This document shows, piece by piece, positions 2,436-59,800 of a stretch of DNA of 64,000 nt. A program made the position numbers and the translations under genes. The notes under the pieces were generated by a model. That model saw nothing but the letters and a program-made list of their open reading frames with translations, searched no databases and was not told the origin of the DNA. Position 1 is the stretch's first letter; each line of letters starts with the position of its first letter. This DNA comes from Deuterostichococcus epilithicus (lineage: Eukaryota > Chlorophyta > Trebouxiophyceae > Prasiolales > Stichococcaceae). The DNA lies in contig JAVTLE010000016.1 in NCBI GenBank assembly GCA_033439295.1, positions 2,356,001 through 2,420,000 on the forward strand. The letters are read 5' to 3'.

Positions 2436-4731
2436 TCAGTAGCTCTCCGCAAGGCGGCAGGACGCCAGCTCGCGCAGCAGTGGGCTTCCGGCAATGGGCA
2501 TCGGCATGCCGCAGGAGCCACCCTGCAGCATGTCAGCGCGCAGCCGCTCCAGCGTGGCCACCCGGAGCGCCAGCTCCCGATTGGCGGCGGCCAGCGAGGC
2601 ATTGCGTTCCTCCAGCGCCGCCACAGTGCCGTGCGCCGCGCTCTCAGCCTGCAGGAGCAAATGGAAAGGAACCAATGAGTTTTCATTGTACATGTGTGTG
2701 GCTGGTTGTGGATAGATGCAGCAGGAAAGCACAGGATGTGAGGGCACCAACGGTGGCGGCGGAGTCTGATCCCATGCAATGGTATCAGCCATGGCGTGCA
2801 ATCTGGCCTGCTTCCTCGTCCGCTTTCTCGTCCACCCCTGAGCTTCGGAGCGACGGTTTCAGCTTGCTCAAAGCCGAGCAGATGNGGCGGGGGGGGGCCT
2901 CGAGCTTGGCAGTGGTGGCGGCATCGGCAGCGGTGCGGCTCTCCGCCTGCCCACGCCGCGCGACATCTGCGACGTGCCCCAGACGGGCCACGTCAGTCAG
3001 CAGCGCGGCGCACCGCTGCTGCAGCGCCAACCGCCCGGCGGCGGCGCGGGCGCGGTCGGCAGTCAGGTCCCGCACCACGTCCGCGAGCGACTCACACTCC
3101 TGCGTCTGCGCGGCGTGAGGAGGAACGAAGGGTGAGGTTTTCTCGAAACTCGCACTCCTGCGTCTGCGCGGCGGCGATGAGGGCGCGGGAATCGGCAACA
3201 GCAGGGGGGTCGCATAGGGTTTGGTCGACGGCATTCCCCTGCCCTGGCAGCAGGCGCGAGGCAGGGGGTGAATGTGCCCCTCGTGCCCTCTTGCGGTGCG
3301 AAGATGAAGCCGATGCAGAAATTGGGCCCCCTCATGGGCGCTTCCAGGGCAGGCTGATGTGCAGGCTATTGGGCGAGGAGGGAGACCTCGACTGTCTTAG
3401 CCCCCCTCCACCTGACACTGGAGAAGAGCGTGCGGGGCCCACCTTGCGGTGCAGCGCGCGCAACACGGTGATGTAGGACACCTGACTGTGCTGCAGCTCG
3501 CCACGCAGCCGTGCCACCGCCGCCTGCTGCGCCGCGGCAGAGGGCTGCTCCGGCACCTCAACCGCCACGGGGCCTGCGGGGCAAAGTGAGTGGCCATTCG
3601 CAGGGCTTCGGGACAATGATCGGCTGGAACGAACCATGAGCCAGCGGCAGCCAAGCAGACTGCGCCAGACAGCCAAGGGTGTAGACCTGCTTTGGCGACG
3701 AGGGGCGCAGAGGCGTTTGACCGGCCGCAGCGTGTTGCCAGCACTGACAGCATGCTCGGGTGCTGCATACATATCCTCGCCTGCCACCGACTCCGCGGCA
3801 TGCGTTCTGGGTGAGTGCGCAGTGATTCTGGGAGGAAGCACTGGACTGAGACCCCAGTATTTGCGGGTGTAAATCCCGTCGTGCCGCGCATGCAGAGTGC
3901 ATGACAAGCCTGCGCACATTCGAGCATCACACGTGATCAAACTCCAGCTCACCCTCGGGCAGCAGGCGCCTGAGCTCCTGGGGCAGCGGTGGGAGCGGCG
4001 CGTCCGCATCTGCATCGTCAGCGGCGGCTGCGGCCTGGGCGGCGGCCGACCGCAGGCCGCCGATGCTGCAGTCCGCCAGCTCCACCTGCTGCTGCTGCTT
4101 TTGCGACGCGGCGTCCGCACTCTCATCCCTCTGCGCAAAAGGGCGCGACACAGTTCCAGCAGCAGGCAGTTTGGAGTAGTTCAGGCAGTTTGAGGATTCC
4201 TGACAGTGGCGCTGCCGTGCGCACGGGAAGCGCAAGGTACAGGGAGACACTGCATGCATCAGGTGTCGTGCGGTGCAACGTCAAGGACTGAAGCGAACGT
4301 TTTCGCATGCAGGTGTCACACAGCCGCAGGGCAAGGATGCAGGCCACCTGCCAATGGCACTTGCAACGCATCCACAGCAGCGGCTGCGGCGGCGCTGTCG
4401 CCTCGTCGCCGCCCGCCGCCGAGTCCTTGGCCTGCGTGTCGGCTGCCCCAGCACGCGCGGCCGCAGCTGGCGCGGCTGGCATATGCCTTCGCCTGCTCGC
4501 CGCACAACCCACTGCCGGCGGACCCGACTCATCGTTGTCCTCGTCGCTGCTGCTGTCGCTGCTGTCGCAGCTGCCGTGAGTCAAATCTGGCAGGCTGCTC
4601 ATGCGGTATGGCCGCCGCTGATCCCCAGCTGTGGGAGTCCGGGGAACTGGATCCCACTCGGCTGGCTGCGCAGAGGGCATCGGCTCGGACGCCGTGCGGG
4701 CAATGGCCAGCGCCACGCTGTGAGGCGGCAT
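2436..4731 (-). CDS. Coiled-coil protein of unknown function, about 370 aa
   Basis: A minus-strand gene of five recognisable exons: 4348-4731, 3953-4130, 3443-3573, roughly 2890-3105, and 2436-2648. The ATG at 4731 opens a Ser/Asp-rich, low-complexity N-terminus with an acidic run (SSDSSSDEDNDESG) that looks disordered and phosphorylatable. Exon 2 has a short Gln run and an Ala/Asp-rich segment. From exon 3 on the protein is heptad-rich: LRGELQHSQVSYITVLRALH, then VVRDLTADRARAAAGRLALQ, then LEERNASLAAANRELALRVA. These are long coiled coils. I do not recognise a family; a scaffold, cytoskeletal or basal-body role would be a guess. The donor of exon 4 cannot be placed because the sequence there has an N (2885) inside a G-rich run. 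A decayed copy of the start of exon 4 lies just upstream in intron 3 (3145-3173). Confidence 0.6.
3145..3173 (-). repeat. Ghost exon: decayed copy of the acceptor and 5' end of exon 4 of the coiled-coil gene
   Basis: Read on the minus strand, both this segment and the true exon 4 start (3105 downward) show CCGCGCAG followed by ACGCAGGAGTG. The copy keeps the 3' splice site and the first codons, then diverges. It lies in the intron immediately upstream, in the same orientation, about 58 bases away. Confidence 0.7.
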
Positions 4732-6260
4732 CGCCCTCGTCTCGACAGCTCACAGGTGACTCTGGGCGATGGCAAGCCAGACGCCCGCCCGGGGCCGGTG
4801 GCCCCGCCGCGCGGCCCTCAAAGCGCCGAGCGACAAGAATCCAGTTCACTGCGTTGGCCGTGCGACCGTCTTAACCGCTGACCTCAATCCGACACAACCG
4901 CTGACCTCTCCAGTGTCCTGGGGACACCTTCCGAAAGAACACGTTCCGCACAATAGAAGTCTCGCAATCGAGGTATGACCCAGAAGAGTTCTACCGCACG
5001 AAGCAGTCAGCAACAGCAGTCAGTCGTGGCCAGGCCTGGCGGCACATGGTGACAAGGATCCCGAAAAATGAGACGGAGTCCGCTCTGTGTCGCTCTCGAT
5101 CTTGTCAGCGCATGTCGATGAGCCTTGGAGTCATATGGTCGTCGGTCGAAAGTGAGCACGACAGCACGGTGAGCTGGGGCTTGCCGCTCATGAAGCAGGA
5201 GGCCACCAGAAAGTCACCGATTAGTTACGCATCTGTCTTGCGCTTGAGTGCGTGGCATTACGTGGCGCGTGGTCCATGTGTGGGGACTCGAGCAAAAGAT
5301 TGCAGTCGCGTCCGGGTTTTACAACAGCATCGACTGCCTGTGATGGTGAGTACGCACTGGCGTATTGATCTCGCGGCGACCCTGCCCACAGCACCCGGCA
5401 AACGCAGCAGCGTACATCTACTCAGCGACCTGCATGAGCGCGGGATAGCACGCAGGCTGTGTGCGGCGGGGGTGTCCACTGCTTTCAAAGGGAGAGGCGC
5501 CACCGGTGGCGGTGATTGCAGTGTCAGGTGACTCTCGCACGTCCCCTGTCGACCTCGAAGCCCATATGGCCCTGCCTCTAGTCAGGTTCACCACCGAATC
5601 TTTCAGTCTAGGAAGCACGTCTGGACTGCTGAGCGACAGGCCGCCGCCTCGCAGTGCGGCCGGCAGCCGCACTGGGCCCGGAATGTGCCTGCACATGCGC
5701 CCGACACACACTTGCGCCGCATGTGTTCCGTCTTCTGCGTGCTGGCTCACTTCTGATGGCACTTCTATTAGGCACGTGCTTTTTATGCGCCAGCCAACAG
5801 ATCGCGCACCTCGGCGGCCCCATGCCCACGAACCGGCATAGATGCTGCGTCCGCTGTCTCGATCCGACAACTGCCTGGCGCTCTGCGCAAGCATTTGGAC
5901 GCTGGCGTCGACGCGCAAGGCTGCCCAGATCGGCGAGGATGCCAAAATCGGACGGGACGCGCGTCCGGGCAAGACCGTGATGAAGCATATCCTCTAATTG
6001 TATGTGTGAAAAATGATCAGTATCATGATCGGCGTGCATGGCGGCGCGGACCAGCTGTGTGTGGCTGCTTGCAGGCGGATCCCCCCCGCCGGTGCTGCCC
6101 CCCACATGCTCAGGCCCGTTCTAGCCCGACGGACGCCGTGCATGGCTTTTAAACGCTAGGATGGTGATCCTTTTGATGTATGTGCGGCGCCTCCCGTGCA
6201 GGGGCTGGCGGGATCTATCGGAGGACCAGCCCCTCGCAGACCGACCGATTTTAGGTCAGC
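4732..6260. other. Divergent intergenic region, about 1.5 kb
   Basis: Lies between the start of the minus-strand coiled-coil gene and the start of the plus-strand ankyrin gene, so it should contain both promoters and 5' UTRs. Open frames exist on both strands (a 184-codon one at 5418-5972 minus) but show no recognisable domain, splice structure or composition bias that would support a gene. No TATA-like element stands out. Confidence 0.4.
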
Positions 6261-17100: not shown

Positions 17101-20100
17101 CACCACACCGAGCATTGGTCGCGACGCGTGCAGGCGAGGCGGAGTGGGGTGGCGCGCCCTGCAACGCGGAACACGGCGCCGTGCTGACGGCCTCCGGCAC
17201 CCCCGCCTGGGCCTTCGCCCTCAGCGAGGACGCCCCCACCCCGGCGGCGTGGCCCTCCCTGCCGGGTGCGGCGGCGAGGCACGGCGCGGCCGGTGCCGGG
17301 CAGCATGGATCCGACCAGTCTGAACACTTGCAACACGCTGCTCGAAAGCCTGGTGGTGCAAGCGCCTGCGCCTGAGCGTGCCCTGATGCAGGCTGAGCGC
17401 TGCTGCGAGCACAGCCTATGGTAGCTGCGACACTGTAGGAGTCCTGCAGTGCAAGGGGTGTTGAGAACTTCATTCCTTATTCAAACCCCCCCTTGCACAG
17501 TGTCCCCCCTGGCCTCGACCTGGCCTGCTTGTGCGTGCAGAGGACGGTGTGCTCATCGTGCTGCGCGCCAGCCAGGGCGGTCCTTTTGCCCGGGCCATGA
17601 GCCTGGTGCTGCACTACAGCGACACCAGCTTTGATGACGCCAACGTGGTGGTGCGGCCCCACGACCCTTCCGCGCCAGCACCTTGCGCCTGTTGTGGCGC
17701 TGCCGCGCACTGATGCGCTGTCAGGGTCCCAGTCTGATCATGCACCGAGGTATGAAGCGCATGTAGGCTTTCATGCTGGCAGGTCATGCCAGCTGTTGCT
17801 GCGACGCAGCACAGCAGCACAGTGGCTCCTGGCTATCTGACTGCCGCTCATGCAGGCGACTGCCCACGTGAACTGGCACTCAGTCAAGCCAGCCCGCAAA
17901 GGCCTCTCGTTGTGTGTCTCTCTCCTTCCCTCCGGTGCTCTCTCAATTTCCAACGGTCAGAGGGGAGGCTCTCAGTTTAGGGGTGTATACCATGTTGAAA
18001 GACCTTGAGTAAGGTTGAAACACCCCAACTGAACTCCCCGTGGTGACCGGCTCAGGTGCTGGACGACGAGGGCACCGCCTTTGCGACGGGCCACCTGGTT
18101 GGCAGCGAGCAGCTGCCGGTGCGCGCGCTGAGCGGCCACCACGGCGGCGGCCCCGCGCTGGCGGGCGCGCCCGGCGAGCGCGCCTTCAGCATCGCCGCGC
18201 GTGAGCGGGACTGGGGCATCGCCATCGCCACACAGCAGCCGGGCGACCCCGCCAGGTGCCGTTTGATTAAACCCTGAACCCTCGATCCGGAGCTGCTCCA
18301 GCCTTGCAGCCCTCTCAGGTGGCCCCCCCCTGCCTCCTGTGTCTCGCCTCCGTTTGCGTCCTGTGCAGCGGGCAGCCGCTTGGTCGACTCCCGGTGCTGG
18401 ACCACTTGGTGCTCTGGCTTGAGCGAGACAGCGCCAGCAAGCCTTCAGGGTCGTGTGCGCCGCGCTGGGTCCCCCCTCAGCCAGACCATGCCATGACTCC
18501 AGCCGCTTCTGCCCAACTTCATCTGCATCCTCTGTCCCCAGTACGTCCAGCTGGTGAACACCGTTGGTGTCCTACAACCTGTTCAAAACATTTATTTTGA
18601 TTCCCCCTGCAGGCCGCTGACGGGGGACGAGAAGAAGGACGCAAAAGCAGGCGGCATGCACCTGCGCCTGTTCAGGCGCTTTGCCTCGGACGGCACCTCC
18701 ACCCCCTTCCGCTGGACGCGCACCAGCCTGCCCAGCAACGTGCGCGGCGGCTGGCTGCCGTCCTCTGACTGCCGTGTCGTGAGCTTGTCGGCTCTGAGAG
18801 CGGCTGCCGCTGCCGCTGTCCATTGTGCTGACACCTTTGTCAGCTGATGTTACTGTGCCAAGTTCACTGTGCCAAGTTTACTGCGCCATTTCGAAATGGC
18901 CGATGTGCGTGTGCTGCGCGCAAGCAGGCGGGCGTGCTGTGGGAGCTGCTGCACGGCGCCGCGAAAACCAGCCTGCTGGGCAAGGCCAGGCGGCCGCCGG
19001 ACCACCCCTGCGACATCTCCGTCACCATTGGACCCCAGGTGCGCCGCGCCCAAGGGGAATGAAAAGGGTTTTCGTTCATTCCCCTTGCCGCGCCCCGCCT
19101 GCTCGTCTCATCTCCGCAGGCCCACCAGCACTGCTGTCACCTTTGCGTCCGCTCCTGCGCCAATTTGTGACATCAGGCTTGCAGACCGACGCTGCCTGTG
19201 GCGCCCCGCTTATGGGCGCTCTTGCTTCGCCGCCGACCCAACACGACGGTGCAGCGATGCTCGGCTCCGTCCGGCGCAGGGCATGCCGACGCGGGTGGTG
19301 TGCGGCCCCAGTGAGGACTGCGCGGTGGCGCTGGCGCTAGCGGGCGCGCTGGCGCTGCAGCGCACCATCCTGNNGCTGCAGGCCGTCGGCGGGCTGCTGC
19401 TACGAAGCGCCAGCGGCGCGGCCGGCGCCGCGGCCTCCGCGGTGAGCGCTTGCTGCCTTTTGCCATTTGCAAATAGTTACAAGTTTATTGAAGATTGGAA
19501 GGAACTCGCCAGCCGTTCAAGCGCCCGTCACCGGCAGTGCCGCGCGCCATTCGGCGAGGACGATGCTGCGCTGCGCGGGAAAGTGCATGTGCAGCGCGAC
19601 GTTCCAACTCGCTGCCTTTGGCCATCTGGGCTTGGGTCAGTCACTCACTGGACGGTGATCACCCGATCCTGGAGCCAATGGCCCTGCACGAATGGAATAC
19701 TGACTCGGCACCCTAGCCCCCAGCTGGCCTGCTGCGCAGTAAGTCACTGACCGGCTCTGTATTTCCTGCCCGCAAAACTCTGATTCGACAAAGCGCTGGC
19801 CGTGGGCGGCTTCGAGGTGCTGGACGCGAGAGCATTCATCTGGCTGCAGCACGACCCCCATTCGGCCTTGTTCTCATTTGCCGCAGCACTGTCCGACCAA
19901 ATCTGCACCCTGTATCAATCTGTCGCAGCACTGACCAACCAATCCCTGGACCCTGACCGTAGGCGGCGTCGCCGGGCGGCTTCAGTTGCACGAGGAGCAG
20001 GTGTTTCACTGAGAGACGACCAGCCCTTCACCGAAATGCACCAAAGCCCTGAACTGAACCAGCAAAGTCTCCGCTGCAGACGACGTCGCCGGGCGGCTTC

Positions 20101-23100
20101 AAGCTGCTGGACGAAGAGCAGCTGTTCCACGCCGCGCGCGCCCGCATGGCCTTCCCCAAGGGCCGGCGGTCCACCCCGGAGCGGCCGCCGCGCACGCCGC
20201 CGCCGATCCGCCCGCTGCCGGCCGCCCGGGCGGTGCCAAACCCGCTCGCGCTGCCGGCCCCGGCGCCGGCGCCGGCTGCTCAGCCACTTGCCGGGTGCGC
20301 GTCGGCTGATGTCGATGCGCCAGCTCAACACCACATGTTTATTTCGCAAGGCATGCTGGGTGCTGCACCATAGAGCCCCCTCCTTGTTCGGGCTGCCGCA
20401 CCCTTCTTGTTGATGCCCCCTCGTAATGCGCTGCAGGGCCGGCAGGCAGCACCGGTCAGTGGCCACGATGAGCGCTTCCAGCGTCGCCGACAGCTGCGCT
20501 GGCTCGATGGTGTCCGCGCTCGCGCCATCATGTGAGGCCTCCTGCCCGCTGGCAGCACTTAGAAACGTCCTGCATGCACTCCGTGCCGGCCGCCGGCTGA
20601 CGCATTGCCATCGCCAGCATCTCGGCCAGCTCCTGCTTTCCAGCCGAGGGGCAGTCTCTAGCAGCCTCCGGCAACCTCCGGCAGCTGAAATATGCTGTGC
20701 CCTGGCGCACCCCCAGTGGCGCCGCCAACGACGCCGGGCCGCNTGGGCGAGGCGTCGCNGCCGCNGGNGGCCGCCGCCGGCAGCAGCATCAGCGGCATGC
20801 GCGCACAGGAGTGGGGCGCCATGGGCGTGCCGGTGGCGGCGCTGGAAGTCCTGGGCGGCGAGGACGCCGCCGTCCTCACGGTGAGGCGTCCAAAAGCTCC
20901 AGGTTTAGAGGTGGCTTAGAGGCACAGCCCCGACGGCAGCCCCTGCTGCGGACATTTGCACCCGCCCTGCATGGCGTGGACGCCGCCGGCCTTGCAATGA
21001 GCTGCCCGGACTGCCGTACCCTGAGCGATGGCGGTGCAGTCGCCGCCAAGGGGTGCCTACACCACGGCCGTGCGGCGCTGGTCAGTCTGCTGTGGCAGCT
21101 GCTGGCAGTCACCCTGGATGTGCACCAGACGCCGTTGCATCAGAGACCAACACATGACTGCAATGCACACGCTCCTCTGTGGTTGTTCAGGCAATTGTTC
21201 AAGGACACGTCATCCAAACTTCGTGTTTCAAGTTATTTGAGTGTCTCTTCTCACTCGGTAACTGTGACATGCAGCTTTTGGAGGCGTTGCGAACGGGCGC
21301 CGGCGACGATGAGGTCACCGCCGCGCGGCACGCGCTGCTCACGAAGGTGGCGCCGGAGCTAAACCCGGGCCTGAATCCCGGGCTGGATCCAATGTCCGAC
21401 ATGCCGTCGCCGAGGCGGCTGCAGTCTGGTGGAAACAGGAGCAGCACCGGCAGCGCTGACGGCGGCGGCAGCCAGGCGAGCCGCCTGGGGCAGGAGCAGC
21501 CGCTGCAGCAGCAGCCGGAGCAGCGGCAGCCNCCGTCGCCGCGGCAGCGGCGAGNAANTNCNGTGGCGGCGGCCATGAACTCGCTGGCGAGCGCGCCCTC
21601 AGTGTTGGTGCAGCCTGCAGGAGAGGGTCCGGGCGCAGAGTCTGCGGCGGCGGCGCCGCCCCCANCAGCGGACCCCCNGCAGCGGCAGTCATTCAACTTT
21701 GATGGCCCCGCGCGGACGCCGCCAAAGCCGCTGACGGCGGCGCCGCTGGCTGAGGCGACCGGCGTGCCGCCGGGTCAGACGCCCTGGGACGTGGCGTCGG
21801 AGCACCTGACGCCGCGCACACGGGCGAGCCTGATCCAGCGCGGCGGGGCGGCCGCCAGGATGCCACTGGCGGGTCTTGCGGACGCGACTCCGGTGGGCGA
21901 CGCCACGGAAGAGGCGCCCCTGCCGCCGTCGCCGCGGGCGGCGGCGCTGGCGGCCGAGACAGCGGCAGCACTGGAGCGAGCGGCCAAGTCCGAGGCGGCT
22001 TTTCGGCGCACCGAGTGGGAGCGGTCACCGGGGCATAGCGACAGGGTGCGATCGCCACGGCGCAAAGGGCAGTCGCCCCACAGCCCCAGGGCCCCTGCTG
22101 CAGCTGCGGCGCCCGTGGCGGCTGCGGGGCGGCGCCGCCGCCGCCCGATGTCGGTCTCAGCGCCGACGCCAGTATGCAGGCTCTCCTCCACAGCAACTCG
22201 CACAGCAGCGGCAGCACCCGCCGACGTGACAGCCGCCGCGGCGCCGCCAGCGACAACGCCAGCAGCGGCAGTGGCTTCGTGTCGCTTAGCTCAGCGTCGT
22301 CCTCGCAGGCGACGTCAACGCACGCCGATGTTGAGCCGACGCTGTCGCCGCGCGTAGACAAGATCCCGCCGACGAAGCCGAGGCGGCAGCCGAGGCGGCA
22401 GCCGCNGGCTGCGGCGGTGGAACCTCCGCCAGCCCCGCGGCAGCNGGGGCNNGGCGCGGCGACAGCAGCTGGGGCGGAAGTCGCTGCGCCGGGCGCCGCC
22501 GGTGCTGCCGGCACCGTCGAGGCGGCCTGCAGGGACACTGCGCCAGAGCAGCTTGACCCTGGCTCCCAGAATGACGTGGAGGACTACAAACACCCCGCGG
22601 TGAGAATGCTGCTGCCCCTTCGCGTCCTCACGCTCCCGCCGGCCTATCAGCTGGGCAAGCCAGTCGGGTTTGTCCACCATGCTGGTGACGGCCACCGGCG
22701 TCGTGGTCGCCCAGTCCATGCTGCTCCCCAACGGGGGCTGCCTGCTCACTTTTACGCGAGCCGGGCCCGCCCGCCCGCCTGACAATGGCGGAGGGTAAGC
22801 TGGACCTGAGCAGCAGAAGCATCGTTAATCGTAATCCGCAAGCCCATGTGCCAGTCCCCTGCTCTGCTGTACAGGTGGTGGTGGAGGAGTACGCTCCGGT
22901 ATCGTCGGCACGCACCAAGTTCAACGTCGCCAACGACAAGCCGCTGACGCCGCGCAACAGCTGGACCGGCGGCAGGGATGGCTCACCGGCGACGACGGCC
23001 ACGACAGGGCCCTCGCCGCGCTCCGGGCCGAGCCCCCGCCACCCCGCGGCGGTTAGCGGCTCAAAGTGCTTGTGCATCACATACCGATGCAGATCGCAGA

Positions 23101-30318: not shown

Positions 30319-33068
30319 ATGCTAGAACATGCGCTCAGGTGCTTCCGAGCGGAGCCCCATCAGGTGCTGCGCACCCGGCAGCCGCGACGGGCAGTGTCGG
30401 CCCGGAGACGTGCGGTGTGTGTGCAAGCCGCAGACCTCAAGGCGCTCATCTTCGACTGCGACGGTGAGTAAGTATACATCGAGAAGCACGAACATTATGG
30501 TGCCCGTCCGGTGGATCCGAGTGCCGCCGCACTGGCGCGCCAGGGCTCATGTGTTCAGGAGCGGCACGAGGGCGGTCGAACTGCCCCCCCCCTCCGGCGT
30601 TGGCATTACACTACAGCCGCGACCGAGCAGCCCTCCCCAGCAACAACTACAACCCAAGCCCCTCCCTCCCCTTCCCCTACCCTGCCAGCATCCCCTCCCA
30701 TCCCCAAACCAGCTCGATGCATTGTCCCCAATTGAAGTTTTGCCGCGCCGCGCATCTGTCTCATCCTTCCCCAACCCTGTACACCCAATGCAGGTGTCAT
30801 ACTGGAGAGCGAGGACCTGCATCGTCAAGCATACAACGCCGCCTTTCAGCACTTCGACATCCGCTGCGACGGCAGCAACCATGTCGTATGGTCGTCCGAG
30901 TTTTATGACGACTTGCAGGTGTGGGTATGAAGAGCATAGTGATCAGGAAGTCACAAGCAGGAATCAGTCGACACAGCTGCTGTCTCGCTGAACGCTCAAC
31001 TGGCTAGGATTTGCCATGCAGAACCGCGTCGGCGGCGGCAAGCCCAAAATGCGCGACTACTTTGGTGAGCGGCCTGTGCACTTTCTTGCTGGCATGGCTG
31101 TTCAAAGCCCCGCTCATCCGCAGCTGGACGTCCTGTGTGCCTGCACGCTGTAAGGGCCTGCCACACGAGCCGCCTGCTGTCAAGCGTACATTGCAGTACT
31201 GACCAGCGTCGCTTCCTACAACAGGCAAGAACGGCTGGCCGGCCTCCTCGCTGGCGCCAGAGGTGCCACAGACGGAGGAGGAGCAGGCGGCGCTCATCGA
31301 CGCGCTGCAGGACTGGAAGACGCTGCACTACCAGGAGCTCATAGGTGGGTGGAAGCTTTGCTGGCGTTTTGTGCTGGTGCTGGTGTGTAATATGCCACGT
31401 TGAGAGGCAGCTCGCTGCGGCATGGAGCAATCTGCAGCCTGGGCATGGGGCGGCATGCAGCGAGGGCCTGCCTGGCATTGTCCAGCTCATGGGACGAGGG
31501 GAGGGCATGCTGGCAAGGCTATTTTCTGGTAATGGGAAGAGCAGGTGCACGCTTCCTGCAAGGGCGAGCGGCTGCGCAGGCCCATGAGTGTGGGCACGCA
31601 ATTGGCCAGAGCCACCACTGCCTTCGAATGCGGAGGTTTTCCCCACAAAGCTGACATGAGCACGTCAGCGATGCGCCTGCATACAGTGGCAAGGTGCGGC
31701 CGCGGCTGGGGCTGCTGCGGCTGATGCACGAGGCGCAGGGCAAGGTGTACAGCTGGCGGTGCTCCGCCGCCCTCGCAAGAGTCTGGCAGTTCTGATGTGT
31801 GCGTCGCATAATCAGGCAGCGGCAAGGTGAAGCCGCGGCCGGGGGTGCTGCGGCTCATGGACGAGGCGCGGGAGGAGGGTTTGAAGCTGGCGGTGTGCTC
31901 CGCGGCCACCAAGTCCTCTGTCATCTTCGTCGTGGAACAGCTGCTGGGCGAGCACCGCTACAGGGTGCGTTCCCATGCCATCCGTGGGCGCTCGTCTCAG
32001 GATGCCCCTGTGCCTGCCATGCATTGGAGAGGCATCGAGACTTTCTGGTTTGAGTAACTGGCGGCTGCGGTGTCTACTTTGCCACTGCTTTGCTGCTGTT
32101 CCAGCCGCGGGCATCCGCCTCGGAGAGCGGGTGCTGGGCCTGCGCGGTATCGTTGCAGTTGCCCTGTCATGAGCGCCGCCGCTCTGAAGCACAGCCACGT
32201 GCCGAGGACAGCCGCACGTGCAGGCTGACTGCGCCGGTGGTTCATGACTCGCACATGAGGCTGCATGGGCCCCAGGCTGCCCTTTGCTGCGCCCTGCGCC
32301 CGGCAGAGCACTGTTGAGTCGTGGACAGCTGCCGCAGCCCCTGCGAAGTTCTCTGCAAGTGCCAAAATTGTGCTGCAGCTGTGGTTGTGTGCAGTCCGTC
32401 ATGTCCTGCGCTGCACAGGGACTGGACGTCTTCATGGCGGGTGACGACGTGCCGAAGAAGAAGCCGGACCCCTCCATCTACAAGATCGCCGCGGAGCGGT
32501 TGCAGGTGAGCAGGAACTCGAATGAACAAACCGTCCCGAGCGCGGCCATGACATCGCAGACGCCCAAAATGGTTCAGACATGCTACACATACATCGTCGC
32601 TTGGTGTGCTTCGAGCAGGCTGGACGTAAGTCCAGCTGTGCAAGAAAAGACAGCGGCGACATGCAAGCACTGCTCTTGCACCGCAGGTCTCGCCAGAAGA
32701 GTGCCTGGTCGTTGAGGACAGCACCATTGGCATGAAGGTCGGCGCTCTGGCTCATGGCTCATCACTTCTCACTGTCGTGTGATGCGTGGTGGCTCCGCGA
32801 TGCGTTGCAGGACGCCAGGAGTCGTCTTGTGGCGCAGGCACGCGGCGATGCATTTGTTGCCGCAATGCATACATGTTTCAGCCTCCCTGATTGTCTATGA
32901 CAGGCGGCGCTGGGGGCGGACATGCGGTGCATTATTACGTACACCTCTTCGACAGCGAAGGAGGCCTTTGAAGGCGCAGAGCGGATATTCGGTGATATTC
33001 CGGATGACCTCAGTGTCGCACAGCTGCGTTCGCCGCCAGCTGAGGTGCAGGATGCGCGGCGGCAATAA
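30319..33068 (+). CDS. Plastid CbbY-like HAD phosphatase, 294 aa
   Basis: Eight exons close in phase: 30319-30463, 30794-30918, 31022-31064, 31225-31344, 31816-31964, 32419-32505, 32687-32737 and 32904-33068. The ATG opens an Arg-rich, acid-poor N-terminus of about 45 residues that looks like a chloroplast transit peptide. The HAD motifs follow: LKALIFDCDGVILESEDLHR (motif I, nucleophile Asp and general acid Asp), LAVCSAATKSSV (motif II Ser), KKKPDPSIY (motif III Lys), VVEDSTIGMKA (motif IV). GGGKPKMRDYF and DALQDWKTLHYQELI are specific to the CbbY/At4g39970-type plant subfamily. CbbY-type enzymes dephosphorylate misfire products of Rubisco such as xylulose-1,5-bisphosphate; which sugar phosphate this one uses is inferred only from family. 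Intron 4 holds a decayed copy of the start of exon 5 (31684-31775). A TGTAA signal lies 56 bases after the stop. Confidence 0.92.
31684..31775 (+). repeat. Ghost exon: decayed copy of the first ~90 bases of HAD exon 5
   Basis: CAGTGGCAAGGTGCGGCCGC here parallels CAGCGGCAAGGTGAAGCCGC at 31817. GCTGCTGCGGCTGATGCACG (31711) parallels GGTGCTGCGGCTCATGGACG, and AGCTGGCGGTGCTCCGCCGC parallels AGCTGGCGGTGTGCTCCGCG. An AG acceptor (CATACAG) precedes it. Small indels and a stop shortly downstream rule it out as an in-frame alternative exon. It ends about 40 bases before the true exon. Confidence 0.88.
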
Positions 33069-42442: not shown

Positions 42443-42479
<37 letters not shown>

Positions 42480-46932: not shown

Positions 46933-49243
46933 TCAGACGCCAATGATCTTGATGGGCTCCTCGTCGGCATTGCGGTACTGCAGGCTGATGTGCTCGTTGG
47001 GGTCGCCGAACACAATGCTGCTGCCGCCGCCCGGCGGCTTGCGCACCTTCAGCGACGACCGGTGCGCGTCCTGTGCGCAGCCATAGATGAAAGTTTGATA
47101 TGGTCGGTGAGCCACATGTGAAGGTGCCGGCGTCGGCAGTTCTATGTGCACGTCACGGGCGGGGGCATGGGGGCCGCCGCGCCGCCATTGTCAGCAAAGC
47201 CCGCGTCCCTGCGGAGGCTGCAGCTCCTAGGGCGTTCTCGCAGCAACCCTCAACCCCGAGGCGCACGATGAAGCGATCATTTGCACAGTGCACTGCGCCC
47301 ACAGCAAGGTGGGCGGGTGGACCGCACCTGCTGCGCGTCACCGAAGATGTCGCTGCCGCCGAGCTCTTTGAGCTTTGACTCCGAGAACGCCAGGCTGTGG
47401 GTGGGACCCTCCTTCACCTCCTCCGCAAAGATGTCGTTGCCCTGCAGGTGCGAGTTGGGTCCTGAGTTACGGGGCGGCAATGTGGGCGGCAATGTGAGTG
47501 AAGTGCGAACCGGGGTCGATGACTGCGCCGTTGGCAGGGTGGTCTGCGACTGCCCTCCTCCACCTCCTCTGCGATGTCATTGCCCTGCATCAGGGGCAGT
47601 GCAGCGCCCGGCGGGGGCACATCAGTGTGCCAGAGGCACGTGGACTGTGAGAGCTTGGTGCGGTCGCCCGCGGCGTCTCCAGGTTTGTCTCCGCCCTTTA
47701 ACTTTCACTGGCATGCCTCCGCGCTCGTGCCGCCCATTGGCATGCGGAGGCCAGCGGCACGACAGCACTGCCAGCTGTGGATTGCGCAAAGCGGCGCGCT
47801 GGTGGACACCAGCCGGCGCAGCCGTGCCCGCTGCGCCGCTCCCGCGGCATGCGCTCGAGGCGCTGGCCGCCTCCCCGTGTCTGGAGGCTCCGGCCTGGCT
47901 ACGTCTGGTGGCGGCCTCAGTCCTCTGTGCGCTGCTGTTGACCGGGCTCGAAGTTCCAGCACTGAGACGCGCCGGGGCATGTGTGTGTGAGCTTTTGTAA
48001 AATCACGCATGTGCATCAAAGGCCCACCTGCAGCGCGCGCTTTTTAGCCTCCGACACCTCCCGGATCTTGCCGTTGGGCGACGCCGAGAACTGCATGCGC
48101 GAGTCGACGCCCGGCGTCTGATCGGCGAAGATGTCCGAGCCGATCAGGCAGTGCTTCAGCTTCGTCTCCAGGCCTCTGTGAATGCAGCGACCACGGATGG
48201 CACTCCTCAAAAGTTTGCGCAACTTGGTACTAGGTGCGATTGGAAAAACAAGGCCCCGTGCTCTCGAGCACCAAGAAAATCGGCCGCCATGAGGGCTGTC
48301 ACCAGCGCACGGAAAAAGGTGTCATGCCGCAGAATAGGAGGGCGAGCATGACGGAGGGCAGGGGGATACTCACGGTCGCTGTGCAACATTGAAGCTGCCG
48401 TCCTCAAACTGCGGGCGGCAGACAGACCGGGGGTGAGCCGCTGAAACAAATCAACATGGACCAGGCACTTGCAGCGGAGCCGGAGATTCAAGTCTCATTG
48501 ATCCGGCACCTCGTTCAAGATCTTGCAAAGTGCCAACAATTAGTGCAGAAAGGCAAGCACTATTCAGATCAACTGGCGCAGGGCACCAGCTGGGCTGCCC
48601 ATCGCTGCCGCTGACCCCGTCCAACGTCGGTAAAGTCGTCTGTCTTTGAACGCATTTCACAGCAAGAGGCGTGCAGTAAGCCCAACACGGGCCACGTTGC
48701 GACTGCAGCTGGCTTGAGAACAAATGTCCAAGGACGCGATGCCCGCGCTGCCCCGACCTCCCAGCCGGAAATACAAGGTTTCCTTCGGATGCTGCTTTTG
48801 GCAATAGGCTGCGACCTACACAGCCATGCCAGAAGTGCCCATGCGAACTCCGAATTGCACGTGGACCTACCTTCGGTGACAGGCCCGCTGGCGGCAGCGT
48901 GGCGTTGTCTACGCCTTTGTATGGGCTTTTCCGTGTCGTGGGGTGCTCCAGACTGTCATCCGGGTATCCTCTGCGGGGTGCGCCACAACTTGCGTCAGCC
49001 TAAGTTCGTGAGCCGTCAAGGCGCTGTATCTCAGGGCCACTCTCCCCAGATGCTCGCGATGAACTCCTGTGTGCTCACAGACGCCTGTGCGACGCGTTTC
49101 CGTGCAGCAGCGAGGCTTGCGGCGCACCCGAAGATCGAGATGCTTTGCCTGCCACCACCGTGATTCCGCCACGAGTCTCGCGAGCCTGGCGAGTCTGTCA
49201 CAGATGGCGGCTGTGTCGGCGACAGGGAGCCGTTCTCGCTCAT
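46933..49243 (-). CDS. Jupiter/HN1 (JPT)-like microtubule-associated small protein, 224 aa
   Basis: Six exons close in phase: 49079-49243, 48374-48408, 48028-48175, 47621-47695, 47328-47441 and 46933-47070. The protein carries two Gly-rich motifs, HGGGRQSISIFG near the N-terminus and RKPPGGGSSIVFGDPNE near the C-terminus. They resemble the RPPGGGSNFSLG-type motif of animal Jupiter/HN1 proteins. Between them are repeated acidic motifs: GSDIFADQTPGVDSR, GNDIFAEEVKEGP and GSDIFGDAQQ, comparable with the SNIFG motif of the same family. It is otherwise polar and probably disordered. Jupiter/HN1 proteins bind microtubules in animals; that role here is inferred from motif likeness only. The 25-residue exon at 47621-47695 is the least certain: its donor was chosen by phase. 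Intron 4 holds a ghost of the start of exon 5. Confidence 0.62.
47550..47592 (-). repeat. Ghost exon: decayed copy of the acceptor and start of Jupiter-like exon 5
   Basis: Read on the minus strand the copy gives TGCAGGGCAATGACATCGCA, then GAGGAGGTGGAGGAGGG. The true exon gives TGCAGGGCAACGACATCTTT, then GCGGAGGAGGTGAAGGAGGG. One codon is missing from the copy. It lies in the intron just upstream, same strand, and keeps the AG acceptor. Confidence 0.85.
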
Positions 49244-49649: not shown

Positions 49650-49686
<37 letters not shown>

Positions 49687-52600
49687 CGTTGCTCGCGTGC
49701 CACCTGATGTGGTGAAGTGATAAACCCCTGAAAATCGCTGACGCCGTCCTGGGCTGGCGCTGCGTCACCATCCTGCGTGCTGACGGCTGCGTACTGGCTC
49801 TTCCGCTGGAGTCGATGCCGCTCATCATCCAAGGCGATTCCTGCGGTGCCAATGCATGACGCTCAGCCAGATGCACCGTAATGGTCAGTGCAGAGGTTTC
49901 CTCGCCACTCCTTGTCAGGTAGGTGCCTGGCACTGAGTGAACGGTACAGCACAGCTCCGTGTGGCTGCACCTGCTGTGGAGTCAAGGCGCGCTGCCTTTT
50001 GCCGGAATTTGATAACGGAATACCAGGCACCCCCCTGCGGTGACGAGGCAACAGCTCAGCAGGGCGAGGTGGTGCCAGGTAGCCTCGAGTGAAACCAGCG
50101 ACGCCGCCGCGGTGTGACATCGGTGCTGTGTGAAAGTCGTCCTACCATGACGACCTTGTCAGGGTCTCCTGACCGCAGCACAGGGAGAGGAGCAAAGGGA
50201 AACAGCAAAGCAGCACAGAAAAGGCAAAGCAGAGAGCGACAAGCTCACCATCATGTTCATAGAGATGCCAGTCAAGTTAAGGAGATGCGGCTCCACGCCA
50301 CCCAGCAGGAAAAAGCCCAGGGCAGTCGCCAGCACACCCTGCAGTGCATAGTTTGACGAGACGCAATATCGTCAGCTTGCGGACATCTTTGTTCAGAGGA
50401 CCCCTCGTGCGAGGCCCACGCGAACCCGCATCATGCGCCGCAGCGGCCCCTGGTGCGGCAACCGTTTGTTTGTTCCGGACGGTTTCTCGTGCAGTTGGCT
50501 CAGTGGACAGCAGGATGCTTGAAGCCCACCTTTGCGACTCCGACCATCGTGGTAGTCAGCTGCGGGACAGGGCAACAGATTTCAATGCTCCTGCCCTCCG
50601 CTCGGCAGTCCACACAGCTCATCAGCTCCACGCACAACAGCAACGTCCGCTGGTTGCCGAAGGGTGACATGCCGTCGGGTCAATGGCGCACCGCGCTGTT
50701 GCTCATAGTGCACAGGAACAGACTGAAGTTGAGCAGCACGCCCATGACGGCGCAGGAGGCCAGCAGCAGGCCGAAGTGCAGCGCGCCGACCGCGCCCGCC
50801 GCGTGCGCCATTGCAGGAACGACCCGCGCCACCTCTCCCGTGCTGACCACAACCTGCTTGATCCGCTCGCGTCACGGCAGTCAACTTCAGAAGCGTAATG
50901 CCGGCCCTTGCCTGACTGCAAGGGTCGGTCTTGATGAGAACAACTGCCCCTGTGGCGGGACGTGGCACAGGGCGGCGACATGGTTGCCGAGAGCAGTGAG
51001 ACGCAGGCATGGTAGCACAAGCGAGCGCAGGTCCACAGAACGCCACTGGGGGGCGCACCACGAGCAGGAAGGGGATGGACAGGGCCACATTATCGGACAG
51101 CAGCTCTCGTGTGAGCAGCGCAAACACACAGGACAGCTGGCGCACAGCCGCCAGGCGGGGTGCGCACCAGGAGCAGGAATGGAATCGACAGGGCGGCGTT
51201 GTAGAACAGCAGCTCCCAGCTGCTGATGCCCTTTTCCGCCCCCGACCGTTCCACCAGCAGCAGGTACCCCGTCTGCAGCCCACAGCTCATCAGCGCGCAG
51301 ACATATCTGCAGCAGAGAGGGGGGCAGAGGCGCAAGTTGCTGGGTATGTCGGGTTTGAAGGAAATTTATATGGTTTCGGTCCCTCACAGCGATCTCACGC
51401 CTCGACCCGTGCACAAAATACTGTCCGTCGCGGGAAGGTCGCGGGAAGGGGGCTGGAAGGCCTGGCCACAGACATGCGATGTTCTGAGACTGAGTCCTGC
51501 CGCGGCAGGCGCTGGGCTTGACACAGTTGTGCGAAAACATACGAAACACAGAATTTCGGCTGGCAGAAGCCTGCGGGCCCATGTTTGAGTGCTCACCCCC
51601 CCAGGTCGAAGGTGAAATCTCCAAGACCAGCGACCAGGCAGCCCGCCACCACCAGGACCACGCTGGTCGTGATGTCGCCCGGCGGCGCCTTTCGCTGTAC
51701 GACGGCCTGTTGCAACGAAAGACGGCAGCAGTGAGCGGTGAGCACAAGGTGAACTCGTTTGACAAGCAAGACTGTGCCGATTCAACCACAGAGAAATGAG
51801 CTGGCGTTGCGATACCTTGACGCCAAGGACCATCACCGGCGTCAACCGCTTCAAAGAATTGTACCTGCGGGTTGCCGCAACAGCGTTTTGCGATCTGACG
51901 CTGTGCACAGCTCTGACAAGCATCTGCGTCAGATGGCAGAGCTCAAGCAGCTGGAAGTTTGCAGCTGTGCCACAAACATGACAGCGAAGATCACACTCAC
52001 ATCGGAATGTTCAAGGCCGACAGTCCGACCAGCGCGAAACACACGTTCGCTGTGTACAGAATCGTCAAAGGCGCAAGCTGCCGCGCTTTGACCATTGAAA
52101 ACGCTGGAAATTGCAGGACGCCCGCCCACTGCAATCCGGACAATACATTGCTGTCGTGCACTGGTCTGCCCAAACCACGACATGCACGCCGCAAACTATG
52201 ATAGCCTCAACAGGGACAGCAGCCATGTCGCCAGCACCAAGGCTAACGGACCTGAGGCAAGCGCGATTTAAACAAGGGAGCCAAAAAGCGCACCCGAAGT
52301 GGCTGCACGATCATAATGGCGGCAACCATTTGGAGCAGCAGCACAGTGTTTGACAATCGAAAGTGCATCAGTGCCGCCTTGTTGACAAAGTTCATCGCGA
52401 TCGCAGTGGCTCCTGCAGGTCATCAGCCAACGTTGCGGCGTGAGGCAATGCATTGAAACGTGGATCACAGTTTGAAGCCTCCGGTCAGACTTGCTCGACT
52501 TCTGCGTCAGTGCAGCTCTGCGCGGGTGACCACAGCGTTGTCTGCATGCACGCCTGCGCACTCACCGTACAAACCGGCAGAGGACATCGCGGCGCACATG

Positions 52601-53898: not shown

Positions 53899-56800
53899 AT
53901 GGCCAGCAGCCAGCCTCTGACCCGCATCCCTGCTGCCCGCCTCGCCCCGACCCACTGCATCAGCAGCCAGGGCTGCGGCGCTACTGCGGCGCATAGGCCG
54001 TTCGTTGGGCGTTCCGACGCATCGGGATGCGTCCATCGGCCGCTGCAGCATTGGACGCAGCGGCAGTGCCCTAGCAGCGGGCTCGCGCCCTCGCCCAGGG
54101 CGCGGCGGCGCCGCACCAGCCTCGCAGCGCGCGCCGTGCTCACTGCCTGGGAATGTGAGCATCTGTTCTTTGTCTTGTTGTTTGTCTGTTTGGGCGAGCG
54201 CTTCATGTTGATGCAGCAGCGCGTCGCGACACTTCTTGCCGGCATTTGGATGGGTATCCTGTTTGCAGCATGTGAAGGCGACATGCGATTGTTTGTCAGT
54301 CCTTGACCGTAGCGTGCTTCAACGATGGCGAGGTCCGGGTCTGCCACACCGAGAACCATAATTCACAGCGGCAGGTCATGGCGGAAATGCGCGTGTATGC
54401 TAGCGTCGATGAGGTGTGAGCATCACAACGCCTCTTGGTGTGCGAGAGAGACAGGCGCTGTGCATGCATCCACCACGCTCTCTCCTCCGACCATCCGCAC
54501 CATGCCGGACGTCATACTGCTCATGTCAGCCACTCCCGCACTCCTCCAGGTTGTGACTGCCTGCGCAAGATCAGCATCGCACCCGTACTGCGTCCCACCT
54601 CCACATACTGCTTGTCCAGGTGTGGAGGGTGGTGACGGACTATGAGCGGCTGGCGGAGTTTGTGCCGAACCTGGCGCACTGTGAGCGTGTCGGCGGGGCG
54701 CCGCCAGGCCGCATCCGTCTCCGCCAGCGCGGCTGCAGCCAGGTGGGATTGTGACGTTTTCTGGGGGGTTTTGGGTTCTGGGGTTTGGGCTTTGATACAT
54801 ACAGAGGCTCAGCACCTCGGCTTGCAGGCCGTGCAAGGCTGCAGCTTGCGACAGCATCAGGTCTGGTTTGGAGGTGCAATTTCCGACGGCAGCGGGCGGC
54901 ATACAGCCCACGGCTGGCTCCTGCTCTGACAAGCTGCAAGCCAGCCTTCTCAGCCCTCTAGCAATCCCCACTTGGCGCTGAAACGATTCGGCACAGAGCA
55001 GTCTGTTGCATTGCATCACACTGTTGGCCGATGCCCGTCCTGCAACTAATGCGGCGCAGGGCACCCTGTGGCGGCTGGAGGCGTCGGCGCTGCTGGAGCT
55101 GCGAGAACAGGTGCTGCCGGGCGGTGGCCGCACTGTGCGCTTCGCCCAGGTCGAGGGTGACTTCAAGGTAATACCTTAGTGCACATGTGTCTACCTCACT
55201 GACTGCACACCAACCTGCCCAAGTTTTCTCAAAGAGCTCAGCTGGGCAGGCAGTACGCTGCATGCCAAGGAAGGCGGCATGACGAGACCGGACACAATCC
55301 CGCATGCATCATTGTGTGCCAGCTTCTCGCATGCCACAGCTTTGCTGTTTGAGCGCCTCCCCACTGGCCTGTAATGAGCGTGCTTCAGACAGGACAGGAG
55401 CCTGCCGCTGGCGCGGTGCCGCTGCGAAAGGACTCGACACCCAACATCCGGCTTTCCTGAGGCTTCCGTGTTCCGGAACCGCAGGAGTTCTCGGGGCGCT
55501 GGGTAGTGGAGCCGTGCCCCCCGGGCGTGGCCGGCGGCCCCAGCCTGGCGACCCTACTGCGCTACGAGATCGCGGTGGTGCCGCACCTGTCCATCCCCTC
55601 GGCACTGGTCGCCCACGTCGTGCGCTGCGGGCTGCCGGCCAACCTGACCGCAATCGCCCGCCGCGCGGAGCAGGTAGGGTTCAGGGACTGCATTGTGCAG
55701 GTGTCGGACCGCCTGCCTGCTCAGCAAGCTCTTCCATGACAGCGCTTCCCCACGTGTGAGCTGAGTCGCAGTGGGAGACATGCCGCCTGGCGTTGGTCTC
55801 ACTTGAGCATGCTGAGTGAACCCTTTTGCAGTTTCTGTCACAGCGCTCCCAAACCTGGTCCACCACCGTGCAGATGGCGCAACGGCATGCCAGCGCGCCA
55901 AAGTTTGCGGCGCGGGCGCTCGCCGATGAGCCGGTGCAGCTTCCCGCCACGCCGCCGCAGCCCCAGCCGCCGCAGCAGCAGCTCGCCGACAACGAGCAGC
56001 TGCCGCCGAAAGCCACGGCGTGGCCCTGGCAGCGCCCAAAGTGAGCCCTGTCTGGCGTCGGCTGCAATTCCATGCCTGGCCCAGCACTGAATGCACCCAG
56101 CTCAACCTATCAGCCACAATTGGAGCATGGTCTGAGGCAGGACTGCTGGCACAGCACGAGGTGCTGGGGGCCTGTGCCGGGCGCCTGTGCCGGGCATCGA
56201 GCCTGGCTCACGAGCGGTGTCTCACAAGCCGGTCCCGGTGCTGCTGCAGGATATCGGCGCCGCGGCTGGCCGCAGGCGCACCGGCGCAGTACCTGGGCAC
56301 GACCAGCGTGCCGCTGCCGCCGGCGGCGCCGCCACCCGCGGAGCTCAGCTGGCAGGCGGGGCCCGACCCGCGCCCCGCGGCCCGAGCCCAGCTGCAGGTG
56401 CGCGTCTCTGCGCCCTGACTCGGCAGCCCCGGCGATCAGGGCCAACACCCGTCCTGTCAGTGCCGGCCGCACTCCTTTGTCGTGGCCGCTGCGTCCTGCT
56501 GCTGCAGCTGCACAGTGCAGACCGCCGGTCGAACGTTCTGGGAGCTGCCGCGCGTGTGCGCCCCAAGCGCATCCGCCCTCCGGCTCTGCACCCTGCCTTG
56601 TTCCGCATCCATCAACCCCTGGACCCTGTGTCGCAGGCCACATACCCGCCGTTTGCGGTGGGCACCCGGTCGGCGCTTAGCGGCAGCCCTGCCATTAGCG
56701 AGGTGCACCTGCGCCGCCTGGACCGCGACAACATCCTGCACCGCCGCGCCGTTGCCGAGATCTGCATCGACGCCTCGCCGCAGGAGGTGGGGTGCCCTGC

Positions 56801-59800
56801 CGGCGCAGCCATGCGCGCCCCTTTTGCTCAGAGGTCTCAGTCCTGCACTCGAACATCTCAAGCACATCCGAACATCAGTCTGACAGTCGGCAACAGTCGA
56901 CACAGCGACAGCAGGTCTCCTCGTCTGAAAACCCTAAAGTGAGATCCCGCTGTCGCCGCCGTCGCAGGTGTGGCAGGTGCTGACGGACTATGAGGCGCTG
57001 GTTGATGTGGTGCCGGCGCTGGCCGTCAGCGAGCGCCTTCCCCACCCCTCCGGCGACACCAACCTCGTGCGCCTGCGTCAGGTGGGACACAAGCAATACA
57101 CAAGTTGCATTTGATACACCATTCCTCCCTGCGCTTCAAGCCTTGCACGCCTGGAGACAAGTGGCGGACGGCCCTCCAATCTAGCCTGCACACTGACGGG
57201 CGCCTCGGCCGCCGTGCCCTCTGCCGCTGCTACGATGCACAACGTCACGTGTCACTTGACCTGAACCTCCTTGCGGCGTCCCATCCCGTCCGCAGATGGG
57301 CTGCAAGGCCATGTCGTACGTGGTGCTGCACGGGGTGGCGATGCCGGACTTGGACAACACACCTCTGTCCCTGCTGCAGTTGCCAACGTGCAGTCGGCGA
57401 CGAGGGCGAGGCCCTAGGCCCTGGCGACCATATTCTGGCGACTGCAGCAGTACTCTTGCGGTACCCCTGATTTCCTGCCGATCACGCCCTGCGCCCTGCA
57501 GCGAAACTCAATCAGTTCTGACGGCGCATCAAAACTCGTGCCCAGGTGGGCTTCAAGGCCATGGCGTACGTGATGCTGCACGGGGAGGCGACGCTGGACC
57601 TGCTGGAGATCCCGCAGCGGGAGCTGCAGTTCCGGCAGGTGCCCGGCGCCGCCGGCGACTTCCTACAGCTGCAGGGCAAGTTCATGCTGGCGCCCGACGA
57701 GCCCGCCATCGCCGCGGTGCGTCTCAGCTGCTGCTGACAAGAAGTCGAAGAGTATCGCTCCTGGTCCGAAGGAGTCGAAAGACATCGCTCCTGGTCCGAA
57801 CTCTCTTTTGTCTTCCGTGCTGCTGGCAACAACCCGTAAGCTGCAGGGGAGTCCCTGCTGGACGCTCGGCAAGCGCGCCACTCCGGCTGGGCGTCCCAGC
57901 GCCTATGCGCGATGCAGGCAGAGTGTCCTGTGGTCGGAGAGCCTTGTGCTGGCGAGGCGATGCGCGGGTTGTGGCAGCCCATGCAGGCGGCAGAGCTGGT
58001 CGGTCGAGTTTGCATGGTCTTCAACCTCTCGTGAAGTCTGCCACGTGTGCTCTCTCCTCGCAGTCGGGCGAGGCGGCGGGCGTGACGCAGCGACCGCGCA
58101 CGGTGCTAAGCCATGCACTTGCGGCGGCACGAGCCTCGAAGTGCAAACCTTCTTCATGAGGAGTGCACGTGTACACTCTGCCTCTCATGCAGGCGGGCGT
58201 GATGCGGCAGCCGCCGTGCCTGGTGCCGTGCAACGTGGCGGAGGCAGTGCTTCCGCCCCTGCAAAGGCATGCTTTTTGAGTTCAAGCTACACCAGAAGTC
58301 AAAGTGACGCGCACCCCCTCCAAACACGCCTGCAGGCGGGCGAGGCGGCGGGTGTCACCCGCCAGCCGCGCACTGTGCTGCGCTACGCTGTGGAGGTGGT
58401 GCTGCCCCGCGCGGCACGCCTGCTGGGGCTGCTGGAACCGGTGCTGGAGCGGGTCGTCTACGAGGACGTGCCCGCCAACCTGCTGGCGGTGAAGCACCGG
58501 GTGGAGACGCTGAAAGCACGGCGCCACGTCACGGCGCTGGAGTCGCAGGGTGGGTGCAGCTCTCTGCCTCAGACGTGTTTGAATCCAAACCCCTTGGATT
58601 CAGCGGGAACAGTCTTCTAACTGCGGCCGTTTCCCCCAAACTCCCTGAGGCCCCGCGAAAGTCCAAGCATAAGGCGGTGCGCTGCGTCGCGGCGCTGGAG
58701 TCGCGGTGCGCGGCGTTGCCCTCTTCGGCGGCGGCAGGAGACGCTTGCCTATCCTCCCCCTGGTGTTTTCCCCCAGGCCTTTGCACACCCGTGCATGCTG
58801 CGGGGTCGTCTGGAGTGGGAGGGGCAGTTGTGCAGGGAGCTAGCGCAGCGTCGCCAGGGGCCCTGGTCAGGAGGCAGGAACGCTACCTGCTTCTCGTCAA
58901 GCATGCGCATCCAGGCGCTGTTCAGGCCAGTCAGCCTGATCCCCGCGACCCGTGCTCCCCCATGCAGGCGAGCACACGCGGGCAGCCTACTGGCGGCGCC
59001 AGCTGGAGCGGCCCAAGCCAGCGGCGCTGGCGGCAGACCTGGAACTGCTGTGCGATGAGCTGCGCCGCTGCTTCGGCGACCTCGGCTATTTGCCCAGCCG
59101 CGCCGACCTGCGCGCCGCCTCCCGGTGGGTTCAGATTTCCATTAGCAATGAGGAAGACTGTTGGCTTAGCATTGAGGTCTCCTGGGCAACCTGCCCAGCC
59201 GCGCCGACTTGCGCGCTGCCTTCTGGTGGGTTCTAGGGCAAGCTACCATTCCTGGGGTGGGGGCAGTCAGCGCCGGTTGTGCAACTGGTAGCTGAGATGA
59301 GGCTCTTGTGACGGCAAGCACTGGCGATGGAATGTTGTCACTCGATAATGACAGACATGGACAAGGTTATCGTGGAGCACGACAGGCCCGGCGGTGGTGG
59401 CTTAGGGTGTCGATTGGAGCCGAGGTCTCCAAAGATGCTGCTGGCGGCGTGCTCTGCTTGAAAGGAGTTCCGACCCCTCCCCTGGGAAAACACCCACGCT
59501 CCTGCCCCCCTCTGCTGCAGGACGGACCTGGAGAAGGCCATCGCGGTGCACGGCGGGCCGGTGGTGGTGGCGGAGGCGCTGGGCTGGCGGCAGAAGAGCC
59601 GCGTGCGGCGCCCCAATGGCTACTGGGACGACTTGGGCAACATGCGGCGCGGCATCGACGAGTTCGTTGAGGACGCCGGCATGGAGGCAGGCGAGCGGGG
59701 TTTTTATTGTTTCGTATTGAGTCGTCCTTACCTCCTCAGGCTCTCTTTGCCGCAGCGGCGCCGGGCCGCTGCTGCGCTCCGCACCGCCGTCGTGGACATG

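Follow-up and report, generated by a model that had tools for sequence, protein, structure and literature searches.

Decayed same-strand copies of exon ends in adjacent introns of the green alga Deuterostichococcus epilithicus

Paired-nick or patch-mediated break repair with filler yields short direct duplications around a non-homologous spacer, and the Rogers-type model of intron gain expects the start of the downstream exon copied at the 5' end of the intron, or the end of the upstream exon at its 3' end. In the potato RdRp gene, a tandem duplication crossing the intron-exon border is described together with intron gain in the available passages of one report (PMC4974935). The passages covered of the Exonize paper (PMC12343006) recognise intronic, partial and inter-boundary exon copies, degenerate exons included, as classes, and describe them as commoner than full-exon ones. 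Here, we describe partial, eroded exon copies, referred to as ghosts, which lie in the introns next to their source exons in a 64,000-nucleotide stretch of the Deuterostichococcus epilithicus genome (2356001-2420000 of its contig; hereafter, the window) and in a wider sample of the same genome.

Besides the window, the DNA analysed comprises 22 pieces of 10 kb each, which brings the total to 284 kb from a host genome of 46.8 Mb in 21 contigs. The pieces come from 10 contigs at hand-picked, non-random coordinates (one, L023, adjoins the window), and an extra 10-kb piece, L029, was kept aside as a held-out check. Gene models were produced by a hidden Markov gene finder self-trained on the sampled sequence, which returned 589 introns with a median of 217 nucleotides (nt) across the 284 kb and learned a donor like [AC]AG/GTGNG and an acceptor like TGCAG/G, the slash marking the splice point. 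Introns longer than 1500 nt (3/589) were omitted from the adjacent-intron comparison, and terminal exons stood outside the tests; gene ends in these models are unreliable.

When exons were aligned with their adjacent introns, 26 of 1172 comparisons scored at least 20 (17 where the intron follows the exon and 9 where it precedes it), against 2/1172 on the opposite strand, 0/1172 in random same-strand introns, 2/1164 in non-adjacent introns of the same gene and 0/1172 in shuffled introns. At a score of at least 16, adjacent introns gave 60/1172 and the same controls, in that order, 17/1172, 16/1172, 16/1164 and 12/1172; at 14 or above, the figures were 109/1172 versus 42-65, the surplus of 44-67 matches across 586 introns corresponding to roughly 8-11% of introns. 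The initial annotation had anticipated a same-strand excess over shuffled and opposite-strand controls and a process unbound to one gene family; the excess is present in the 284-kb sample, and the second claim is supported as well. The held-out piece (23 introns) contained a strong match, which scores 37 and lies 2 nt from the junction, as well as a weak one that scores 17 at a distance of 34 nt, with 1/46 at 16 or above in its opposite-strand control. Two paralogue loci, L027 and L028, gave no match of 16 or more in their 12 introns, an outcome of little weight.

Chance or composition is ruled out by the four controls. Similar codon composition, errors in the gene models or assembly faults might more broadly have produced an artefact, given the GC-rich, repetitive coding sequence and the unverified gene models, and we regard this as the least credible explanation: the two same-strand controls, non-adjacent and random introns, have the same composition without any excess of matches, the annotation-free scan described below agrees, the copies are 4-28% diverged and hence not assembly duplicates, and the peptides of three ghosts are missing from protein homologues. 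No match excess pointing to a dispersed family, whether introners or transposable elements, was seen in non-adjacent or random introns of the 284 kb.

In the window, same-strand partial exon copies occur at all 11 positions named by the initial annotation, with scores of 20-53, identities of 72-96% and 26-106 aligned bases, while opposite-strand scores there are 6-13. Among 3000 same-length, sense-strand intron pieces per copy, the 11 scores were matched at frequencies of 0 to 0.0007; the control maxima of 53 (for 31684) and 35 (for 59184) are probably due to ghosts inside the control pool. These copies, together with candidates beyond that list, are as follows.

3148..3173, minus strand: ghost of an exon 5' end with its acceptor; source 3090-3115, 25/26 bases identical, offset 58.
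19801..19835 (approximate), plus strand: farther, second ghost of the 5' part of exon 20080-20294, with 90% identity over 30 aligned bases and a score of 21.
19964..20009, plus strand: ghost of exon 20080-20294 (5' part with AG); score 28, offset 117.
31684..31771, plus strand: ghost of exon 31816-31964 (5' part) in a HAD-type hydrolase gene; score 53, 84% over 88 bases.
47550..47590 (approximate), minus strand: ghost of an exon end lying near 47403-47447, 92% identical across 37 aligned bases.
51048..51106, minus strand: ghost of exon 51168-51306 (3' part at 51059-51106, donor side to 51048); score 28 for the exon part, 37 including the donor side.
57276..57381, plus strand: ghost of exon 57546-57716 that covers its 5' part, the acceptor and some 18 bases of intron; offset 250, 73% over 106 bases.
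57819..57880, plus strand: weaker candidate ghost of exon 57546-57716 (3' part), beyond the earlier list; score 22 with several gaps, offset 171.
58060..58127, plus strand: ghost of exon 58336-58549 (5' part with AG); offset 272, 74% over 68 bases.
58192..58258, plus strand: second copy from exon 58336-58549, scoring 21 across 60 bases.
58679..58704, plus strand: ghost of exon 58336-58549 (3' part); score 20, 88% over 26 bases.
59181..59233, plus strand: ghost of exon 58968-59124 (3' part and GTGGGTTC donor); 85% over 53 bases, offset 101.
59350..59406, plus strand: candidate ghost of exon 59521-59690 (5' part), beyond the earlier list; score 29, offset 171.

Some exons have several ghosts (19801 and 19964; 58060 and 58192; L013 3117 and 3299), and the copy at 51048..51106 is one of few whose homology runs far into the intron. 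The translation of the hydrolase gene at 31684 without its ghost matches 347 proteins (the best 120 of the 347 being listed), and homologues of two window genes include plant and green algal proteins; homologues indicate a chlorophyte source, perhaps within Trebouxiophyceae. Three ghosts between 57276 and 58258 were called as in-frame exons by the gene finder. The peptide of 57276..57381 falls in a gap in 6/6 aligned homologues (6 of the 26 found were aligned), those of 58060..58127 and 58192..58258 have no alignable counterpart in 6/6, the region being a short variable linker, and the real exons beside all three do align with the same six proteins. Elsewhere in the window, two stretches at 54617-57035 within one predicted gene are 75% identical over 71 nt at an offset of 2348; homologues of this gene carry PF03364 and PF10604, and the repeat is probably an internal domain duplication.

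The copies share a characteristic anatomy. In 21 of the 26 ghosts scoring at least 20, the copied piece ends within 8 nt of the near splice junction, against 2.2 expected under uniform placement. The earlier description of a unit that always straddles the border therefore holds for most of them; three lie at 11-15 nt and two at 48 and 84 nt, the last two both scoring 20 and being possibly false. None of the 26 reaches the far exon junction, all stopping 55-185 nt short. Spacers measure 32-189 nt (median 70) and offsets 82-254 nt, no spacer among the 26 being shorter than 30 nt; within the weaker matches (score 18-19), two, at score 19, have spacers of 14-15 nt. Introns with a ghost have a median length of 418 nt (n=25) versus 214 nt (n=564) for the others, longer introns also having more room for copies. 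The geometry expected by the Rogers-type model is not what we see: the 17 downstream ghosts leave 73-539 nt to the far end of the intron, and only one of the 9 upstream ghosts (L021 5585) starts at the first base of the intron. By-eye inspection of spacer origin and inner-end microhomology gave nothing clear, and a by-eye count of the marks expected of intron-gain remnants found 0/17 downstream spacers ending in AG and 2/9 upstream spacers beginning with GT, leading us to reject that candidate. Separately, L021 5562-5714 holds a 45-nt repeat at offset 108 that takes in the beginning of a predicted intron of 96 nt as well as the exon after it; either a coding repeat or an intron gained through tandem duplication would fit.

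We tentatively favour local, same-strand, splice-site-anchored copying of exon ends followed by decay. About 22-91 bases of an exon end, often with the first few splice-site bases, would be copied into the neighbouring intron without a change of orientation, landing mostly 32-189 bases from the source, and would then drift beyond recognition, such that introns would become a layered record of past events. Anchoring of the copying at splice sites is favoured because the intron-side end of the piece lies mostly near the splice junction; this copying step, and any tie to transcription or splicing, is something we infer. The likeliest route would be short-range template switching or templated repair during transcription, with splice-site DNA or nascent RNA engaged, and template switching is a possible origin. 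It seems to us rather unlikely that the process is, in particular, a mutational one linked to splicing or transcription, which would copy the exon inward from its splice site and place the sense-oriented product in the neighbouring intron. Captured RNA, complementary DNA or free DNA fragments inserted at breaks could also carry exon pieces into introns and would permit junction-defined ends, but such capture should give both orientations and distant sites, and inverted and non-adjacent matches are at background; because the copies are close by and in the same orientation, we consider it very improbable.

The sequence beyond the junction bears on whether whole junction-spanning units were duplicated. 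Analyses of flanks, decay, simulation, splice scores, random placement and mismatch clustering were made on matches within 15 nt of the near junction, 2/26 at score 20 or above being omitted. Across the 24 cases, identity between ghost and real flank is 0.72 at 1-5 nt past the junction, 0.36 at 6-10 nt and 0.22-0.35 thereafter, homology mostly ending no more than about 10 nt beyond the splice site. Against a simulated null of full tandem-unit duplication, with the two intron parts each diverging as fast as the ghost itself, the observed flank homology falls under the 5% point in 20/24 cases (global) and 16/24 (local). Age alone is not the reason for the loss, because four of the five cases with extending homology are 17-21% diverged and less diverged ghosts lack it (the fifth, with a score of 19, is outside the simulation set). 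Of the copy unit proposed by the initial annotation, the same strand and the restriction to the adjacent intron are supported; its junction-spanning tandem duplication, in the simple form, is not, with flank homology too low in 20/24 and intron-only duplications at like spacing missing.

The latter emerged from an annotation-free scan, an ungapped self-comparison at offsets of 25-3000, which at a score of at least 22 gave 115 direct versus 25 inverted matches before filtering. Removing rows of low trinucleotide entropy, AAC microsatellites, the array at L017 8200-8950 and offsets above 1000 left 41 direct repeat families and no inverted one. By gene-model class, these are 24 exon-intron families (offsets 40-254), 4 exon-mixed (in at least one of which the gene finder had taken a ghost for an exon), 8 exon-exon (6 in L015 and 2 in L003, resembling protein repeats), 4 intron-intron and 1 intergenic. 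The intron-intron and intergenic families have offsets no greater than 43 and look like short tandem repeats. Intron-only duplications at offsets of 50-1000 were absent from the filtered scan of the sample. Random placement, with faster two-copy decay allowed for, predicts 9.9-28.6 intron-only or intergenic pairs per 24 exon-intron pairs; above offset 43 we observed 0 after filtering and one intergenic array before. In an equal-geometry test at 20 or above, exons matched adjacent introns in 21/596 comparisons, intron ends matched their own interior in 0/258, intron tiles gave 0/158 and intergenic tiles 2/130, the L017 array supplying both hits. With the threshold lowered, the intron tiles yielded a single match at 18 or above (1/158), which is a simple repeat with an offset of 34, and an additional match at 16.

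Several repeats in the sample stand on their own. L017 8295-8860 is a dense array with repeats in both orientations and TTTCTTG-like motifs, a long AAC microsatellite runs from position 5769 of L023, and a 30-nt sequence inside a predicted intron occurs twice without any difference at window 37298-37370 (offset 43 nt, spacer 13 nt), seemingly through a spaced duplication that happened very recently.

Ordinary duplication filtered by selection offers another account, possible although we doubt it: short tandem duplications would fall anywhere, those internal to exons would be purged, those straddling a junction would be tolerated as one splice site still works, and the intron parts would decay fast in both copies, leaving anchoring as a selection filter. 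It accounts for same strand, nearness and straddling, the two weaker matches with spacers of 14-15 nt suit it, and the potato case provides, in the passages available, a precedent crossing an intron-exon border (PMC4974935). We disfavour it because intron-only pairs and flank homology are scarce; the loss of flanks in less diverged ghosts and the lack of spacers below 30 nt also speak against it.

Splice-site-anchored copying, for its part, has a number of observations weighing against it. Splice-site consensus could account for part of the 0.72 identity next to the junction. Flank similarity, in a test that includes the first six bases and thus the splice site, beats random intron pieces at p<=0.05 in 8/24 cases (global) and 2/24 (local). 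When extension was started 6 nt past the junction, for matches scoring at least 18 and within 8 nt of it, 5/26 extended with a score of at least 5 versus 3.5% of controls, and the best extension lay more than 20 nt from the junction in 8/26. Of the three multi-copy loci tested, one (L013) shows homology between its spacers, the outcome expected of true tandem duplication; such intron-side homology in a minority (8/24 global, 5/26, L013) counts in favour of plain duplication. The filtered-out array at L017 8295-8860, which counts as one locus and is intergenic by the gene models, contains direct repeats with offsets of, for instance, 104 and 146. The hidden Markov gene models are unverified, with at least three ghosts miscalled as exons, and we know of no enzyme that makes splice-site-anchored DNA copies. 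Because the intron-decay model may give too little weight to large indels, tandem-like behaviour is seen at a minority of loci and the sample is small, we hold anchored copying tentatively and keep plain duplication beside it as a doubtful alternative.

The ghosts decay in a manner close to neutral. Mismatches at codon positions 1, 2 and 3 number 72, 55 and 74 over 396, 390 and 393 sites in the 24 anchored cases; of 201 mismatches, 126 are nonsynonymous, 72 synonymous and 3 stop-making, and 20/21 indels are not multiples of three. The synonymous share (72/201) somewhat exceeds the level given by random change, which silent substitutions in the real exon would be expected to cause, and weak constraint on some ghosts is possible. 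Divergence varies among copies, in agreement with the initial annotation's claim that they differ in age. Mean splice-site score is 5.5 for real sites versus 0.2 for ghost sites. The view that copies keep the donor or acceptor is borne out only in part, the ghost site being at least as good as the real one in 3/24; a splicing function, also suggested earlier, finds no support in these substitutions, indels and decayed sites.

Old duplications with saturated intron parts, whose exon part was kept similar by repeated gene conversion or non-coding selection, would explain missing intron-side homology beside an 80-90% identical exon part. The raised synonymous share leans the same way, silent change in the real exon contributing too. 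We nevertheless find this improbable: mismatches are unclustered, unlike conversion tracts (longest match run 13.1 observed vs 12.5 permuted; combined p 0.37), codon positions are near-flat, indels break the frame and ghost splice sites have decayed. Upkeep by gene conversion is itself ruled against by the unclustered mismatches. Coding alternative exons are disfavoured by the flat codon positions, the frame-breaking indels and the peptides missing from the six aligned homologues, and tandem exon duplication of the mutually exclusive kind by the same codon and indel patterns and the far junction reached in 0/26. Dating by paralogues was set aside, the relatives of one gene being just 42-49% identical and too old.

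If the anchoring is mutational, splice sites shape where DNA duplicates, linking RNA processing to mutation; to our knowledge, no link of that kind is established. Splicing- or transcription-linked copying, if true, would be a mutation mechanism with breakpoints set by splice sites and would furnish a steady supply of intron length and spare splice signals. Even if mere selection on ordinary duplications is at work, the roughly 8-11% of sampled introns estimated to hold a recognisable copy of their own exon would make an unusual archive of intron growth. Additionally, ghosts are a hazard for gene prediction, as our own gene finder experienced, and public gene models of related algae may contain false exons of this sort.

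Among known systems, paired-nick and patch-mediated repair have a geometry that suits the ghosts and may apply if the spacers are filler, which looks no different from native intron within a single genome; we know of no tie of such duplications to exon ends, and they should also hit introns. Intron gain by local duplication likewise involves same-strand local copying of exon sequence that brings splice sites along, but that model puts a new intron between the copies, whereas ghosts sit in existing introns near the source exon. Introners are also a genome-wide process altering introns, but, as presented in the available part of that source (PMC9860276), they are self-copying mobile elements, whereas ghosts are locus-specific exon copies. 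For green algae, we found no description of the pattern at the level of titles and abstract openings, which did not take in the 2010 Chlorella variabilis genome paper, and the exon and intron passages of the Coccomyxa genome paper do not mention it. The intronic, partial, inter-boundary classes of Exonize (PMC12343006) resemble the ghosts, the passages covered mentioning neither splice-site-anchored copying of exon ends nor green algae. The potato RdRp duplication (PMC4974935), in the passages available, is one event that created a new intron and copied intron signals, whereas the ghosts occur in many genes, need no new intron and leave the intron part mostly uncopied.

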